DNA of 40,074 nucleotides from an uncultured Opitutia bacterium (lineage in GTDB: Bacteria; Verrucomicrobiota; Verrucomicrobiia; Opitutales; Opitutaceae): assembly GCA_903839035.1 (NCBI GenBank), contig CAIMAQ010000021.1, forward strand, positions 1-40,074. The letters run 5' to 3'. The notes under the pieces are model-generated. The model saw only the letters and a program-made list of their open reading frames with translations, was not told the origin of the DNA and did no database searches. Shown one piece after another: positions 10,064 to 39,536 of this stretch. A program made the position numbers and the translations under genes. The number at the start of each line of letters is the position of its first letter. Position 1 is the first letter of the stretch.

Positions 10064-10182
10064 GCCCCCACGGTGAAAGGTTGCCCGGAGACGACAAGCC
10101 TCGGTTTGGGAATTAGGGCGGGCGTGGCCGCGGGGCGCGACGGTTTGGCCGACAGGGCAAATCCTTCGGTTGAACCATCAGC

Positions 10183-10316
10183 GGTGGGGCGGGTCTCTGT
10201 CCCGCCCTTGGAGCCGCGACGCCTTCGTCGCGTTCTGAACGCATACGCGGTGAGGGCGCGGCGTCCCCATGCAAAATCAACCCTCGAGCCAGGGCGGGGC
10301 AGAGACCCGCCCTACC
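10183..10316. repeat. long inverted repeat, GGGTCTCTGNCCCGCC family
   Basis: Arms at 10183-10208 and 10291-10316 are reverse complements at 24 of 26 positions. Each arm can also fold on itself (GGCGGG with CCCGCC around TCTCTGT). The 82-base loop holds a second small hairpin, GCGACG and CGTCGC around CCTT. It lies in the gap between two minus-strand genes and ends six bases from the stop codon of the isomerase gene at 10323. A related arm is present at 31353-31378. There is no T tract, so it is not a standard terminator. Confidence 0.8.
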
Positions 10317-10322
10317 CCGGAA

Positions 10323-12049: not shown

Positions 12050-12075
12050 GGGGGTAAAAATGAGGAAGGGTTGTT

Positions 12076-12154
12076 AACCGCGAATGGACGCAAATGAACG
12101 CGAATGCAGAAAAGCTCGGGAGCTCTCCGTTTCGATTCGCGTCCATTCGCGGTT
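12076..12154. repeat. inverted repeat, CGCGAATGGA family
   Basis: Arms at 12076-12095 and 12135-12154 match at 19 of 20 positions as reverse complements. The left side reads as three degenerate 10-bp units (CGCGAATGGA, CGCAAATGAA, CGCGAATGCA). The centre contains a small AGCT-based palindrome around 12113-12125. It occupies most of the 118-base gap between the isomerase gene and the Gfo/Idh gene, both on the minus strand. There is no T tract. Confidence 0.85.
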
Positions 12155-12167
12155 CAAAAAATCCGGC

Positions 12168-15137: not shown

Positions 15138-15148
15138 GACCTGTTATT

Positions 15149-15257
15149 GCCCACGGAACACATAGAAAACACGGAAGGCATCCGACTGATCAATTCCCGC
15201 TTTCGGAGGTGGTTGGCCCAGGGTTTTCATTCCGTGTGTTCCGTGGGTTTCGTGGGC
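15149..15257. repeat. inverted repeat, CACGGAACA family
   Basis: Arms at 15149-15176 and 15230-15257 are reverse complements at 23 of 28 positions. Each arm is three degenerate 9-bp units, for example CACGGAACA, CATAGAAAA, CACGGAA on the left. It begins 12 bases after the aminopeptidase stop codon and ends about 50 bases before the next start codon. The same family is found nested inside larger repeats at 21511-21593 and 24675-24776. Confidence 0.82.
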
Positions 15258-15307
15258 AAAAATTTTCCGTGGACAAGCCCCGGGTTCCTGCTCTCCCTTG
15301 GACCCTC

Positions 15308-18524: not shown

Positions 18525-18713
18525 GCGCTCAGCCGTAAACCCTAAGCCCTAAGCTTTAAGCTCCCTCCGCCCCGCGCCTCATCCGCGCGGGGCTTTTTTT
18601 TGCCTGCCTTTCGCGCCCCCGTCGAAATCCAGTGTAACCTATTGGGTGACACTTTGGCTTCCCGCTTGCCGCTTCGACACCGGGCTTACAGCTTATCACT
18701 TACCGCTTAGCGC
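18525..18713. repeat. inverted repeat of TAAGCYC units flanking a terminator
   Basis: Arms at 18525-18554 and 18684-18713 are reverse complements at 22 of 30 positions. Each consists of short degenerate units such as GTAAACCC, TAAGCCC and TAAGC. The left arm starts four bases after the ppdK stop and the right arm ends five bases before the dioxygenase start codon. The intrinsic terminator of ppdK sits in the loop. If the arms paired in RNA, they would enclose the leader of the downstream gene. Confidence 0.65.
18569..18601 (+). terminator. strong intrinsic terminator of ppdK
   Basis: A perfect 9-bp GC stem (18569-18577 with 18585-18593), a 7-base loop (CTCATCC) and eight T residues (18594-18601) form a textbook rho-independent terminator 48 bases after the ppdK stop codon. 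Confidence 0.95.
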
Positions 18714-21415: not shown

Positions 21416-21460
21416 CGCCCTCCACACTCCTCAACCCGCCGCGCAGGACAAGCCGGATGA

Positions 21461-21634
21461 TTTTAACCAAGAAACACCCGAAAAGCACGAAACCGAACCC
21501 ATCGGATTTTGGCCCACGGAACACACGGCAATATTCATATCAGCAATTCAACGCCCAGACCTGTTCGGATCCATTCCGTGTATCCCGTGGGCCAAAGGTT
21601 CGGGCCAACCGATTTCGAGTGTTTCGTGGTAAAA
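21461..21634. repeat. nested inverted repeat (CACGAAA outer, CACGGAACA inner)
   Basis: The outer arms, 21461-21483 and about 21612-21634, pair with one gap and a few mismatches and belong to the CACGAAA(C/G)A 9-bp-unit family. Inside lies a second pair, 21511-21528 and 21576-21593, matching at 16 of 18 positions and belonging to the CACGGAACA family. The inner pair sits in the outer loop like a nested insertion. The repeat fills the gap between two divergent genes, upstream of the korA promoter. Confidence 0.8.
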
Positions 21635-21705
21635 AAACTCCGAACCTATGCGTCCGTTACGCTCTGCGTGCGCAGGGAAAAACAAGGAGTGACCATATCC
21701 TCAGG

Positions 21706-24626: not shown

Positions 24627-24825
24627 TCACTACGAAAGACCCGAACGGCACGAAATACGATCCTCCGGAGGTTCGCCCAAGGAACCCACGGCGGACACGG
24701 AATGGGTGAATCCCGCTACTCACCATCCGGGGATGAGGTTTGGAATATTTCCGTGTGATCCGTGTCTTCCGTGGGCTAAAAGTCAGACGGATCGGATTTC
24801 GTGCCGTTCGGGTCTTTCGTGGTGA
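24627..24825. repeat. nested inverted repeat, best conserved copy
   Basis: Outer arms at 24627-24663 and 24789-24825 match as reverse complements at 35 of 37 positions. Each is built of 9-bp units (CACGAAAGA, CCCGAACGG, CACGAAATA, CGATCC). A second inverted pair, 24675-24702 and 24749-24776, is nested inside. It matches at 22 of 28 positions and belongs to the CACGGAAGA family. It lies between the convergent korB and hydrolase genes. Directly after it, near 24843-24866, is a lone arm of a third type (TCTTTTGCGCCCTTCGCGG) with no partner. Confidence 0.9.
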
Positions 24826-29333: not shown

Positions 29334-29506
29334 ACCACGAATCACACGAAAACCGGACTATCGGAGTTTGCCCGCGAATCACGCCAATTTACGCGAATTG
29401 ATTCCGAACCCAAATCCTAAACTTTGGATCCGATCCATTCGCGCAAATTCGCGCGATTCGCGGGCAAGGATCGACGTTCCCGGGATACTTTCGTGTCTTT
29501 CGTGGT
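29334..29506. repeat. nested inverted repeat (CACGAA outer, CGCGAAT inner)
   Basis: Outer arms at 29334-29351 and 29489-29506 match at 16 of 18 positions and belong to the CACGAAAGA family. Nested inside, 29369-29394 and 29441-29466 match at 23 of 26 positions and belong to the CGCGAATGGA family, with weaker pairing continuing inward. The whole element fills the gap between the helical protein gene and the thymidine kinase gene, both on the plus strand. Confidence 0.85.
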
Positions 29507-32848: not shown

Positions 32849-32864
32849 GCCGGGATTTTCAGAG

Positions 32865-32944
32865 GATCGCAAAAGCGCGAAAGGGCAAAAACGAGGATAG
32901 GCGTCAGATTCCCGGTTTTCGCTCTTTCGCGCTTTTGCGATCCC
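32865..32944. repeat. inverted repeat, GCGAAAGG 8-bp-unit family
   Basis: Arms at 32865-32892 and 32917-32944 match at 26 of 28 positions. Each has three 8-bp units: GCAAAAGC, GCGAAAGG, GCAAAAAC on the left and GCAAAAGC, GCGAAAGA, GCGAAAAC when the right arm is reverse-complemented. It follows the dioxygenase gene by 16 bases. A lone arm of a related type (TTTGCGCTGCTTGCGCCTC) follows at about 32960-32985 without a partner. Confidence 0.88.
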
Positions 32945-34331: not shown

Positions 34332-34497
34332 TTTATCGCTAAAGCGCAAAAGAGCGAAAATTGGGAGGGTTGTCATTGCGAGGAGGCTGCAGGCCGACGC
34401 GGCAATCTATCCGGATGGATTGCCACGTCGCCCGTTGGGCCTCCTCGTAATGACAATCGGTTTCCCCCGTTTTGCTCCTTCGCGCTTTTGCGATAAA
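34332..34497. repeat. nested inverted repeat (GCAAAAGC outer, GTCATTGCGAGGAGG inner)
   Basis: Outer arms at 34332-34361 and 34468-34497 match at 24 of 30 positions and belong to the 8-bp-unit family seen at 32865. The inner element, 34370-34456, is a nearly complete long hairpin with arms starting TTGTCATTGCGAGGAGGC. Its sequence is of a widespread palindromic intergenic type, as I recall from unrelated bacterial genomes. The element lies between the convergent hflX and OppF-type genes, where it could also end transcription. Confidence 0.87.
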
Positions 34498-34506
34498 AAG
34501 CGTTAC

Positions 34507-35391
34507 TCAGCGATCCAGCTTCGCCAGCTCCTCGGCCACGCCGAAGTTCATCGGCACATCCGGATCGGACGACGGGATCGCCGACAACAACAGCTTGGTG
34601 TACGGATGCTCCGGTGCCGCAAAGATCCGCGCCGTCGGCGCCAGCTCGACGATCTTCCCGCGGCGCATCACCGCCACGCGGTCGCAGAAGTTGCGCACCA
34701 CATCCAGGTTGTGCGCCACAAACAGGTAGGTCAGCCGGAACTCCGCCTGCAGTTCCTTCAGCAAATCCAGCACCTGCGCCTGGATCGTCACGTCGAGCGC
34801 CGACGTCGCCTCGTCGCACACGATCAGCGACGGCCGCATGATCAGCGCCCGGGCGATGCCGATGCGCTGACGCTGCCCGCCGCTGAAGGCATGCGGGTAA
34901 CGCACCCGGTGCTCCGGCTTCAACCCCACCCGCCGCAGCGTCTCCGCCACCCGTTCGGCCAGCTCAGGGCCACGGGCGAGGCGGTGGATCACCAGCGGTT
35001 CGCCGACGATGTCGCCGACGGTCATGCGCGGGTTGAGCGAGGAAAACGGATCCTGGAACACCATCTGCGCGTGCTGCCGCAGCGGCTTGAGCGCGCGGTC
35101 CGACAGGCTCGCCAGGTCCACCGTGCGCCCGTCCGGCAGCCGGAAAATCACCTGACCCGCCGTCGGCTCGATCGCGCGCAGGATGCAACGCGCCGTTGTC
35201 GTCTTGCCCGAGCCGCTCTCGCCGACGAGCCCCAGCGTCTCGCCCGGCGCGAGATCGAAGCTCACGTCATCCACCGCCTTGGTCACACCTGTGACCTTCG
35301 GCCGGAACCCCCGGCTCATCACCGGGAAGTGCTTGCTCAGCCCGCGGACGGACAAGAGCGGGCTGGGCACGGGTGAGGGGTTATGGGCCAT
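34507..35391 (-). CDS. OppF/DppF-type ABC transporter ATP-binding protein
   Basis: The 294-residue protein is a peptide-type ABC importer ATPase. Walker A GESGSGKT is at about 57-64, the Q-loop in AQMVFQDPFSSLNP, the signature FSGGQRQRIGIARAL and Walker B LIVCDEATSALD are intact. The usual C-terminal Cys-rich extension (oligo_HPY) is missing: the protein ends soon after EHPYTKLLLSAIP. The start at 35391 (MAHNPS) is used. It is downstream of the OppD-type gene, with an inverted repeat at 35418-35497 in the 132-base gap. Permease and binding-protein genes are not in the window. Confidence 0.9.
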   Translation of the reverse strand: MAHNPSPVPSPLLSVRGLSKHFPVMSRGFRPKVTGVTKAVDDVSFDLAPGETLGLVGESGSGKTTTARCILRAIEPTAGQVIFRLPDGRTVDLASLSDRALKPLRQHAQMVFQDPFSSLNPRMTVGDIVGEPLVIHRLARGPELAERVAETLRRVGLKPEHRVRYPHAFSGGQRQRIGIARALIMRPSLIVCDEATSALDVTIQAQVLDLLKELQAEFRLTYLFVAHNLDVVRNFCDRVAVMRRGKIVELAPTARIFAAPEHPYTKLLLSAIPSSDPDVPMNFGVAEELAKLDR

Positions 35392-35417
35392 GGGCGATGG
35401 GAAAAATCCCAATGCAG

Positions 35418-35497
35418 ATCGCAAAAGTGCCAAAGTGTGAAAGCGCGAAAACCAGGAATTCCGATTCCCAGTTTTCGCACTTTCGCCCTTTTGCGAT
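35418..35497. repeat. inverted repeat with unequal 8-bp unit counts
   Basis: The left arm, 35418-35459, has four 8-bp units (GCAAAAGT, GCCAAAGT, GTGAAAGC, GCGAAAAC). The right arm, 35464-35497, when reverse-complemented has only three (GCAAAAGG, GCGAAAGT, GCGAAAAC). Both arms share the ends ATCGCAAAAG and the innermost GGAAT. The loop is four bases. It lies between the two Opp-type ATPase genes, apparently interrupting an operon. Confidence 0.85.
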
Positions 35498-35523: not shown

Positions 35524-36360
35524 TCAAGCGACGCGAACGCGGCGCGATGGCAGCGCCTCGAGCAGCGCGCGCGTGTACGCGTGCTGCGGGTTTTTGAGCA
35601 CGGCCCGCACCGTCCCGTGCTCGACGATCTTGCCGTGGTGCATCACGGCGACGTCATCCGCCACCTGCGCCACCACGCCGAAGTCATGCGTGATCAACAG
35701 CACCGAGCAGCCGAGTCCGCGCTGCAGGGTTTTGATGAGCCCGAGGATCTGCGCCTGGATCGTCACATCGAGTGCCGTCGTCGGCTCGTCCGCGATCAGC
35801 AGCTCCGGCCGGCAGACGAGCGCCATGGCAATCACCACGCGCTGACGCATCCCGCCGGACAGCTCGTGCGGATACTGGTCGAAGCACATCTCCGCCTGCG
35901 CGATGCCCACCTGCCCGAGCATCTCGACCGTCAGCCGCCGCGCCTCGGCCTGGTCCACCTTCCGGTGCAGCAGGATGGCCTCGGCGATCTGGCTGCCGAC
36001 GGAGTGGACCGGCGAGAGCGCCGTCATCGGCTCCTGGAAAATCATGCTGATCAACCCGCCCCGCACCTTGTACAGCGCCTCCGATGTCTCGCCCAGCGCC
36101 GCGAGGTCAATCTCCCCCGCCCGCGCCGAGCGAAACAGGATCTTCCCGCCCGTGATTCGCCCCGGCGGCTGGATGAGCCGCAGGATGGAGTACGCCGTGA
36201 CGCTCTTCCCCGACCCGCTTTCGCCGACCAGGGCTAGGGTCCGCCCCCGCATGAGCGAAAACGACACCCCATCCACCGCCGGCACCACCCCCTCCTCCGT
36301 AAAAAACCCGGTCGATAGATTCTCGACCTCAAGCAACGGAAGTTCAGCGGGGTAAGCCAT
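35524..36360 (-). CDS. OppD/DppD-type ABC transporter ATP-binding protein
   Basis: The 278-residue ATPase has Walker A GESGSGKS at about 46-53, the Q-loop in [13 protein letters not shown], the signature [15 protein letters not shown] and Walker [13 protein letters not shown]. As with its partner, the C-terminal oligo_HPY extension is absent: it ends at [12 protein letters not shown] plus seven residues. The start at 36360 (MAYPAELP) is chosen. Both genes face away from tRNA-Gln. OppD and OppF normally work as a pair on the same permease for peptides or glycosides. Confidence 0.9.
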
Positions 36361-36470
36361 CGCCGCCAGCAAACGCGCGGCAAGTGGTCGCTGCAAGTTC
36401 CGAGGTGGAACGCGTTGTCCCTAACGCGTTTGCTTGGGAATGCGGCGCCTCCACCGCGTTCGCTCGGCGC

Positions 36471-36498
36471 TGACAGCTGACCGCTGACAGCTGACCGC
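36471..36498. repeat. tandem 14-bp duplication
   Basis: TGACAGCTGACCGC occurs twice without a gap, at 36471-36484 and 36485-36498, perfectly conserved. It lies in the gap between oppD-type and tRNA genes, just upstream of the putative tRNA promoter. Nearby, AACGCGTT is repeated at 36409-36416 and 36423-36430. Each copy is a palindrome, so they can fold as an 8-bp hairpin. Confidence 0.8.
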
Positions 36499-36510
36499 TA
36501 GTTTAGTGCC

Positions 36511-39414: not shown

Positions 39415-39447
39415 GGGGGTACGCGCCTCTGAGCACCGAAGATGTCC

Positions 39448-39527
39448 CGCAGAGACGCTGAGACGCAGAGGGATTTGAAGGTTCTTCTGATCACAACTCA
39501 CTTTCTCCACGTCTCAGCGTCTCTGCG
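39448..39527. repeat. inverted repeat, CGCAGAGA 8-bp-unit family
   Basis: CGCAGAGACGCTGAGACG (39448-39465) has a perfect 18-base reverse complement at 39510-39527. The left side reads as 8-bp units CGCAGAGA, CGCTGAGA, CGCAGAGG. The 44-base loop is AT-rich. It lies between the convergent DUF885 and GreA-like genes and could serve both as a transcription stop. Confidence 0.9.
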
Positions 39528-39536
39528 TGAGACATT

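Follow-up and report, generated by a model that had tools for sequence, protein, structure and literature searches.

The focal palindrome lies between two oligopeptide-ABC-transporter ATPase genes in the window, the 40,074-nt stretch of DNA analysed here, which belongs to a genome (G000) of 3.39 Mb in 126 contigs. Its parts, its neighbours and the other elements of the window are collected in Table 1. The true start of the left-hand gene is probably downstream of the listed one, because the listed ORF overlaps the palindrome. The preliminary description had counted four 8-nt units in the left arm and three in the right, which the unit coordinates confirm, and the 8-nt periodicity of the arms was matched by none of 300 shuffles. 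Folded as single-stranded DNA, the element gives z = -6.6 against shuffled DNA. The gap that holds it measures 161 nt in the window, as against 16-40 nt in seven relatives.

Table 1. Elements of the window and the genes beside the focal palindrome
Feature	Position	Strand	Remarks
Focal palindrome, ATCGC family, putative gene-less miniature element	35418..35497	.	between two oligopeptide-ABC-transporter ATPase genes
Focal left arm, four 8-nt units	35420..35451	+	CGCAAAAG 35420-35427, TGCCAAAG 35428-35435, TGTGAAAG 35436-35443, CGCGAAAA 35444-35451
Focal inner stem-loop CCAGGAAT..ATTCCCAG	35452..35471	.	
Focal right arm, three 8-nt units	35472..35495	-	as reverse complement: CGCAAAAG 35488-35495, GGCGAAAG 35480-35487, TGCGAAAA 35472-35479
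ABC-transporter ATPase (oligo_HPY), left neighbour	34507..35433	-	listed ORF
ABC-transporter ATPase (oligo_HPY), right neighbour	35524..36396	-	
Single array, 7-nt units (GGGTTAT type)	35369..35402	+	adjoins focal element
Second ATCGC-family palindrome	32864..32943	.	
Third ATCGC-family palindrome	34332..34497	.	TTGTCATT palindrome (34370-34456) nested in loop
Palindrome, CGCGAAT units (AACC ends)	12071..12159	.	best match cassette G002:C73; G000:C79 arms similar
Palindrome, CACGGAA units	15144..15262	.	arms match cassette G000:C125
Nested pair, CACGAAA arms outside	21454..21642	.	CACGGAA palindrome 21508-21596 inside
Nested pair, CACGAAA arms outside	24627..24825	.	CACGGAA palindrome inside
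Palindrome, CGCGAAT units (TTGCCC ends)	29368..29467	.	within outer CACGAAA-type arms; arms match cassettes G009:C16 and G002:C79
Palindrome, CGCAGAG units	39445..39530	.	arms match cassette G000:C70
Weak palindrome, 7-nt units (TAAGCNN), class B	18525..18713	.	
Single array, 7-nt units (GCTGACA/C), class B type	36461..36502	+	

A profile of the focal family matched 26 places in the two genome samples described below and two sister contigs, of which two were dropped for their E-value and four could not be parsed. The 20 parsed copies carry 4/3 units in ten cases, 4/4 in four, 3/3 in one and other values in five, three of these five being clear parsing failures. The alignment consensus is itself 4/3, with CGCGGAGG as the second unit, AGCGGAAN as the third and a fourth on one side only, and the units tend to be ordered and specific to their position, unlike a random tandem run. 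An inner palindrome, ACCGGGAA..TTCCCGGT, resembling the focal inner stem-loop, is present in several other copies. Given that 4/3 is found in the consensus, in half of the parsed copies and in the same-site copy of the sister genome G002 (where the fourth unit is only just above threshold), the asymmetry looks inherited, and its earlier reading as a sign that units are gained or lost is unsupported. Some slippage does exist, since the right arm of the copy at L137:9525 has four near-identical units, and the focal asymmetry can be explained without it. In that copy (L137:9525-9614) the left arm is A-rich and degenerate and the right arm consists of near-identical GGCGGAAG units; the arms can diverge separately. 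In a CM search at most 78 candidates were scored per genome and each palindrome was counted on both strands, so that its numbers are not copy numbers.

All 12 unit-arm sets tested in the window, cut by hand, match the arms of gene-bearing cassettes of the same genus, with none of 200 shuffles as good in each case. No match to these cassette arms was obtained for a GTAG-type REP (p 0.07) or for a control palindrome (p 0.52), and Rfam at gathering thresholds found nothing in the window except one tRNA. GTAG-type REPs (GTAGGGCGGGTC...GACCCGCCC) form a separate class, seen at 10178-10321 of the window and at L138:2880-2945, L209:14466-14543 and L130:2707-2777, and the RAYT gene L008 adjoins GTGGGTGGGGCTTTATGCCCCAC repeats. 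Palindromes of the type TTGTCATT(C/G)..., about 90-110 bp long and in some cases nested in unit palindromes, occur at 34370-34456 of the window and at L121:6325-6431, L128:3380-3472 and L203:11628-11720.

Unit palindromes at genome scale

Palindromes were sought in 725,553 of the 3,392,666 bp of G000 (window included) and in 951,327 bp of the approximately 2.9 Mb of G002, which gave 70 and 79 palindromes respectively, against two in the dinucleotide shuffles of each sample. Most are intergenic (62 of 70 and 70 of 79), intergenic DNA being about 11% of bases, and arms are periodic (p<=0.02) in 31 of the 62 intergenic palindromes of the own sample and 41 of the 70 of G002. These 72 periodic palindromes are non-coding, span 60-190 bp and have arms of 17-84 nt with periods mostly of 7, 8, 9 and 10 nt. 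The 8-, 9- and 10-nt units of the preliminary description are thus present, but its list omits the 7-nt class, which is the commonest in the own sample (13/31) and equals the 9-nt class in G002 (11/41). A constant unit length within each arm was claimed as well; this holds for the 8-nt units at 35418 and not for the TTGCCC-CGCGAAT family, whose arms, as read, run 9 then 10. That families unlike in sequence have one common architecture is borne out. The further proposal, that this plan reflects a common process rather than common descent, needs division: within the focal family descent is plain from the alignment, and across families the plan belongs to a single type of element, in which ends and encoded protein vary together. 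In periodic palindromes purines predominate in the 5' arm, with a mean fraction of 0.65 in the own sample and 0.61 in G002, and above half in 26/31 and 35/41 respectively.

Palindromes nest in the loops of others at 21454, 24627, 29368 and 34332 of the window and at L130:2664 and L193:1926; a GTAG-type REP lies within L130:2664-2817 and a CACGGAT palindrome within a CGCGAAT one at L193. When the loops of same-family copies within one genome were compared, none of 91 pairs reached the set score, as in shuffles, the exception by eye being the focal family, in which the inner part is common to copies. The periodic palindromes outnumber the genes of the cassettes described below: the 1.68 Mb sampled contain 72 of the former, one GxxExxY gene and two IVP genes. 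In the palindrome loops no trace of either gene was detected, which indicates that the palindromes are not simple internal deletions of cassettes.

Unit repeats were also met in other replicons. A plasmid search with a CACGAAA palindrome gave no match, and one with a CGCAGAG array gave 24 records, in each of which less than 80% of the query was covered; a Thiodictyon plasmid (L269) and a Sphingomonas plasmid (L271), both from another phylum, carry exact or near-exact CGCAGAG/CGCGGAG palindromes with no listed gene over them. Among the matches listed, dense CGCRGAG arrays extend over 30-40 kb at G018:C1:304485-336514 and G024:C1:5330574-5372569, and GxxExxY or IVP genes lie in or beside these clusters at G018:C1:336647 and at G024:C1:5351137 and 5340960. 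Single arrays of CACGAAA units, in one orientation and for the most part located between open frames, are present in L219 and L261 (IMG/VR 3300044477) and in L264 and L257 (3300042691), and in L264 the array forms the start region of the next open frame (ACGAAATGAGG).

Cassettes with genes between unit arms

The first cassette was found in a G002 gap matching a focal-family copy of the own genome (L204:15701), where three-unit CGCGGAT arms surround an open frame of 110 residues. Its product is a GxxExxY protein (TIGR04256, E 1.9e-31; PF13366 PDDEXK_3, E 4.6e-30). A full-size cassette is about 450 bp long and holds one GxxExxY gene of approximately 110-150 residues, a member of the PD-(D/E)XK nuclease superfamily, tightly between inverted arms of three units (four in the focal family), each unit typically a 7-nt core CRCRRAN with 1-3 spacer bases. 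PF13366 is present in 40 of 57 genomes, the own genome included, and in 164 of 288 Verrucomicrobiota genomes sampled, often in several copies per genome. Cassettes of CACGGAA, CGCAGAG, CGCGAAT and ATCGC type are present in G000 itself. The ATCGC four-unit arms of the focal family bound open GxxExxY genes at G008:C39 (TIGR04256, 8e-36) and G010:C1 (4e-38), and at G000:C69 a GxxExxY gene with one in-frame stop; these ATCGC cassettes may represent one old cassette site, because the flanks shown share neighbouring gene sequence by eye.

The association between gene and arms was found in several sets of loci; here and for the IVP genes below, the loci are the best-scoring gene matches rather than a random draw, with ancestry uncorrected. 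In relatives, 26 of 30 GxxExxY loci have flanking inverted repeats beyond those of 60 shuffles, against 5/56 when the same geometry was shifted by 750 bp; these loci are one per genome, own included. By eye nearly all of their arms consist of two or three units, three being the usual number, with CGCAGAG, CACGGAG, CGCGGAT, CACGAAA and CGCGAAT among the cores, and of the four loci below threshold three (L281, L288 and L289) have unit arms by eye and the fourth (L273) scored 22 on re-reading. Among further Verrucomicrobiota 25 of 28 loci pass, compared with 0/55 for the control and 8/320 random intervals; 21 of the 25 have at least two CRCNRAN cores in both arms, two more have CAGGAT units, and in L323 and L326 no CRCRRAN units can be clearly made out. 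The flanks of L317, L329 and L330 did not pass. Within the genus 17 of 18 loci pass (one of the 18 already being in the first set), together with one of two in G027, L339 and L351 being those that did not. The best arm lag is 8-10 in 82 of 90 GxxExxY arms, all of 18-50 nt with a score of at least 14, and in a flank table of 28 hand-picked loci of 58, 32 of 56 flanks are periodic, 30 of them with lag 8-10.

Outside these genomes, a plasmid protein search returned two records from other phyla (a Fusobacteria plasmid locus and Gemmatirosa), the arms of neither of which passed. A first viral scan with a divergent query gave no relative; on viral contigs, all five GxxExxY loci (four distinct) score above their shuffles, and three of the four distinct sequences do so with other units. 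In the viral contigs L393-L396 the GxxExxY genes lie between AT-rich repeats, the units of L393 being about 13 nt long (TACTTAAAATTT), and L396 also has direct copies of its arm.

All eight own-genus cassette proteins examined, together with L186, score 109-150 bits with TIGR04256 (cut-off 35). Both alignments keep the D and (D/E)xK of the PD-(D/E)XK residue pattern: D, E and K are invariant in an alignment of eight GxxExxY proteins, and in an alignment of ten D and K are invariant and E is present in nine, the tenth (L186) having D in its place and so DxK. Searches of solved structures with a GxxExxY profile gave no significant relative (T7 endonuclease I at E 0.74 and 0.83, not used) and a second profile nothing up to E 1. 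The AlphaFold model of the protein is poor (mean pLDDT 53), and PADLOC returned weak Cas4 and PDC-M36A matches only.

Genes of PF05635 (23S_rRNA_IVP, a four-helix bundle) were examined because the palindromes with 7-nt units suggested a second gene. The family is present in 39 of 57 genomes and, like PF13366, often as more than one copy, and 22 of 30 IVP loci have inverted repeats beyond shuffles, against 1/56 in the control; the other eight did not pass this test. Of the 60 IVP flanks 44 are periodic, with lag 7 in 39 and lag 8 in five. An IVP gene of the own genome, G000:C39 (L214), is flanked by GGGAGAT-like arms, the same unit as that of palindrome L134:7551, and the other of the two IVP genes in the samples (L146) has no arms. 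Units of 8-10 nt therefore go with GxxExxY (class A) and units of 7 nt with IVP (class B).

Protein and arm were compared as well. Over 54 cassettes (the 58 loci minus L309, read on the wrong strand, and L317, L329 and L330, with scores under 14) protein similarity and arm similarity are correlated, with a Mantel rho of 0.285 that lies above all 2000 permutations. With a single own-genus genome kept, rho is 0.274 (n=47), and the covariation is also seen within each of two subfamilies (p 0.0015 and 0.003). The final base of the 7-nt core differs with the protein subfamily. Of 16 GFLE-type proteins, 15 have cores that end in A or T or are of the CAGGAT kind, and of 38 GPGLLE-type proteins 34 have G-end cores, with four unclassed. 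These subfamily and core labels were assigned after seeing the data, and a Fisher test also omitted four unclassed rows (L272, L290, L323 and L326).

The palindrome at 35418 is probably a gene-less miniature of a small cassette that carries a GxxExxY gene between unit arms, with a second class of such elements around IVP genes. It is possible that the genes are instead passengers, the unit palindromes arising first in some other way and GxxExxY and IVP genes having merely inserted in their loops, as REPs and TTGTCATT elements do; the frequent nesting described above and the lack of gene remnants in the loops speak for this. However, this is unlikely for three reasons: first, protein and core co-vary. 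Second, unit length differs between the two gene families. Third, in the G008 cassette L347 only a few bases separate one arm from the start codon, and the stop codon abuts the other.

Turnover in shared gaps and distribution across genomes

Of the 62 sites of intergenic palindromes in the own sample, 31 were located in G002 or in a second sister, G005. Unit number had been expected to vary among strains more than arm sequence; the opposite was found, in that unit sequence, and even unit family, changes more between sisters. The same gap holds GGGTTAT (7) in one sister and CGCGAAT (10) in the other at L134:401, with flanks 99% identical; CACGGAA (9) and the focal family (8) at L121:11262; CGCAGAG (8) in the window and CGCGAAA (10) in G002 at 39445; and TTAGGTG and TTTTCGA at L211:12858 (flanks 95-98%). 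In G002 the copies at the window's three focal-family sites have kept their ends, but most of their unit bases have changed, from A-rich to G-rich. The nested TTGTCATT part of the third ATCGC palindrome is missing from G005, the inner CACGGAA palindrome of the nested pair at 21454 is absent in G002, and the G002 site corresponding to the pair at 24627 has no palindrome. One particular gap could be traced in eight genomes of the genus, G000 among them, and not in G005. In it lie four GxxExxY cassettes with three kinds of arm, namely CACGGAA in G000, CGCGAAT in G002 and G009 and CACGAAA in G010; G004 and G008 have 7-nt GTGACGT palindromes there, and G003 and G006 no clear unit palindrome. Presence is thus patchy and replacement in the same gaps is fast. 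The gaps differ wholly between species, so that no junction can be fixed, and neither a target duplication nor a clean empty site was found in them, nor was movement of an element seen in these sister and genus comparisons.

Nineteen comparisons of conserved palindromes, a few of them made in both directions, gave 73 one-sided arm changes that alter pairing (49 lost and 24 gained in the compared copy) and four two-sided ones, two of them independent, that keep it. This indicates that the arms mostly decay rather than being corrected, and compensatory maintenance of pairing, with just the two independent cases, was rejected. Template switching has been described to homogenise arms and invert spacers (PMC8604942; PMC8794818, each as excerpted), and an enzyme-free origin, in which replication slips and switches template between inverted repeats, would account for the loop of 29368-29467, which is inverted between G000 and G002, for the four near-identical units in one arm at L137:9525 and for one two-sided matching change at L132:4236. 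As a source of the elements as a whole it is nevertheless improbable, given that identical cores recur in many genera, CGCAGAG even in other phyla, that the arms mostly decay, with little homogenisation, and that a link to two gene families is not predicted.

The palindromes might also be RNA devices under selection, acting as terminators or as stabilisers of mRNA 3' ends or intercistronic regions. Their placement could be taken to favour this, since in both samples they are over-represented in convergent gaps (18/62 palindromes against 46/331 gaps of at least 60 bp in the own sample; 16/70 against 66/425 in G002) and under-represented in divergent ones (7/62 against 87/331; 11/70 against 123/425). 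The same orientation bias is, however, reported for REPs in the excerpted source (PMC3733652), pairing is mostly not maintained, and the focal gap is far shorter in seven relatives. Furthermore, TTTT directly follows the stem in just two of the 72 periodic palindromes, so intrinsic terminators, which need a U-tract, are rejected and an RNA role of any of these kinds is very improbable.

Three array patterns were compared with gene content over 57 genomes, ancestry being uncorrected throughout: they are present in 34 of the 40 genomes that have GxxExxY and in 3 of the 17 that lack it (rho 0.69), and in 33 of 41 genomes with RAYT and 4 of 16 without (rho 0.43). Within the family, no association is seen between the presence of arrays and that of GxxExxY (p 0.38), nor any relation between RAYT and array counts (rho 0.07). 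G028, G031 and G035 have arrays and no GxxExxY, and six genomes have GxxExxY without any of the three patterns. The own genome has two RAYT genes as well as GTAG-type REPs, such as that at 10178-10321, and a single 7-nt array lies upstream of one of the RAYT genes. In spite of this and of the correlation over 57 genomes, an origin as REP/BIME elements moved by RAYT transposases is scarcely credible and was rejected: the flanks of both RAYT genes have no inverted unit arms, the arms of the unit families carry no GTAG or CGTC tag (their ends by eye being ACC, GCCC or ATCGC), the within-family correlation vanishes, and no RAYT was found in the array-rich genomes G027 (43 focal-family matches) or G007, G011 and G033 (at least 10 arrays each).

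Proposed mechanism and relation to known elements

The window palindromes, then, look like gene-less miniatures of two fast-turnover cassette classes. The arms would be the recognised ends of the cassette: the nuclease encoded inside may recognise its own unit core, probably as a hairpin or cruciform, and cut there, and repair or strand transfer after cutting would move or copy the cassette. Gene-less copies could use the same protein in trans, which is consistent with the excess of periodic palindromes over cassette genes. Their position in intergenic and operon gaps and their orientation bias could be explained by insertion tolerance, as for REPs, and template switching probably contributes the loop inversion and some arm repair. 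Two simpler routes to the miniatures were set aside, namely internal deletion, given the lack of gene remnants in the loops, and classical MITE copying with a common inner part, which is unsupported in the families tested (the 91 loop pairs), the focal family differing by eye.

The palindromes resemble miniature inverted-repeat transposable elements (MITEs) in being short, non-coding and intergenic, with patchy copy number and inverted ends in common with coding elements of the same genome. They differ from them in that no target duplication was found and no transposase is known, that the inner sequence is unrelated in most families and that the arms are built from units. GTAG/CGTC REPs with their RAYT genes are likewise intergenic palindromes with the same orientation bias, and also sit inside other palindromes; as described in the excerpts of the source, however, they are 20-40 bp long and tagged (PMC3733652), whereas the unit palindromes are untagged and occur also where no RAYT was found. 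The same excerpts name Opitutus terrae as a rich REP host (PMC3733652). The P6b stem of the cyanobacterial tRNA-Leu(UAA) intron is built, in the part of its description drawn on here, from 7-nt repeats of either of two classes, which replace each other repeatedly while the structure stays similar, but it is one locus in a group I intron with no linked gene (PMC4476775). The TAACTGA heptamers of Beggiatoaceae and cyanobacteria are also 7-nt units, mostly intergenic and patchy across phyla, for which a mobile binding protein has been considered; they are almost always direct, and the excerpted text names no S23 or four-helix gene partner (PMC4679880).

The closest parallel to class B concerns the S23p protein, which we take to be IVP, of the PF05635 family. 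In Coxiella the 23S rRNA IVS is 428-444 nt long, with the S23p gene in a hairpin loop formed from terminal inverted repeats; such IVSs lie in helix 45, are excised by RNase III, are sporadic in bacteria and have been called selfish, according to the excerpts of one source (PMC4990558). Class B is alike in having a PF05635-type gene between inverted repeats (at 22 of 30 loci). It is unlike the IVS in that the latter lies in 23S rRNA, whereas class B loci were picked by gene alone and have arms that are arrays of 7-nt units; the gene of class A is different from that of the IVS altogether. A wider reading, which we put forward tentatively and would sooner doubt than accept, is that GxxExxY nucleases and S23/IVP proteins each mobilise one of two sister classes of minimal hairpin element by reading a short unit code in its arms, that the gene-less palindromes are moved in trans, that the 23S rRNA IVS represents a class B element trapped within an rRNA helix, and that both classes account for much of the unexplained intergenic short repeats, tandem and inverted, in several phyla.

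A search of open-licence papers found no description linking GxxExxY or IVP genes to unit arms, and both are, to our knowledge, named families without a settled role. That each is tied to its own kind of repeat gives the two families a testable role, and the GxxExxY cassettes amount to a ready-made list of nuclease variants, each paired with the core it is likely to target. Should the nuclease indeed recognise hairpins through a code in their sequence, it would represent a mobile-element enzyme of a new kind, and if the reading of the palindromes is true, a large part of the unannotated intergenic DNA would be the traces of two element classes.
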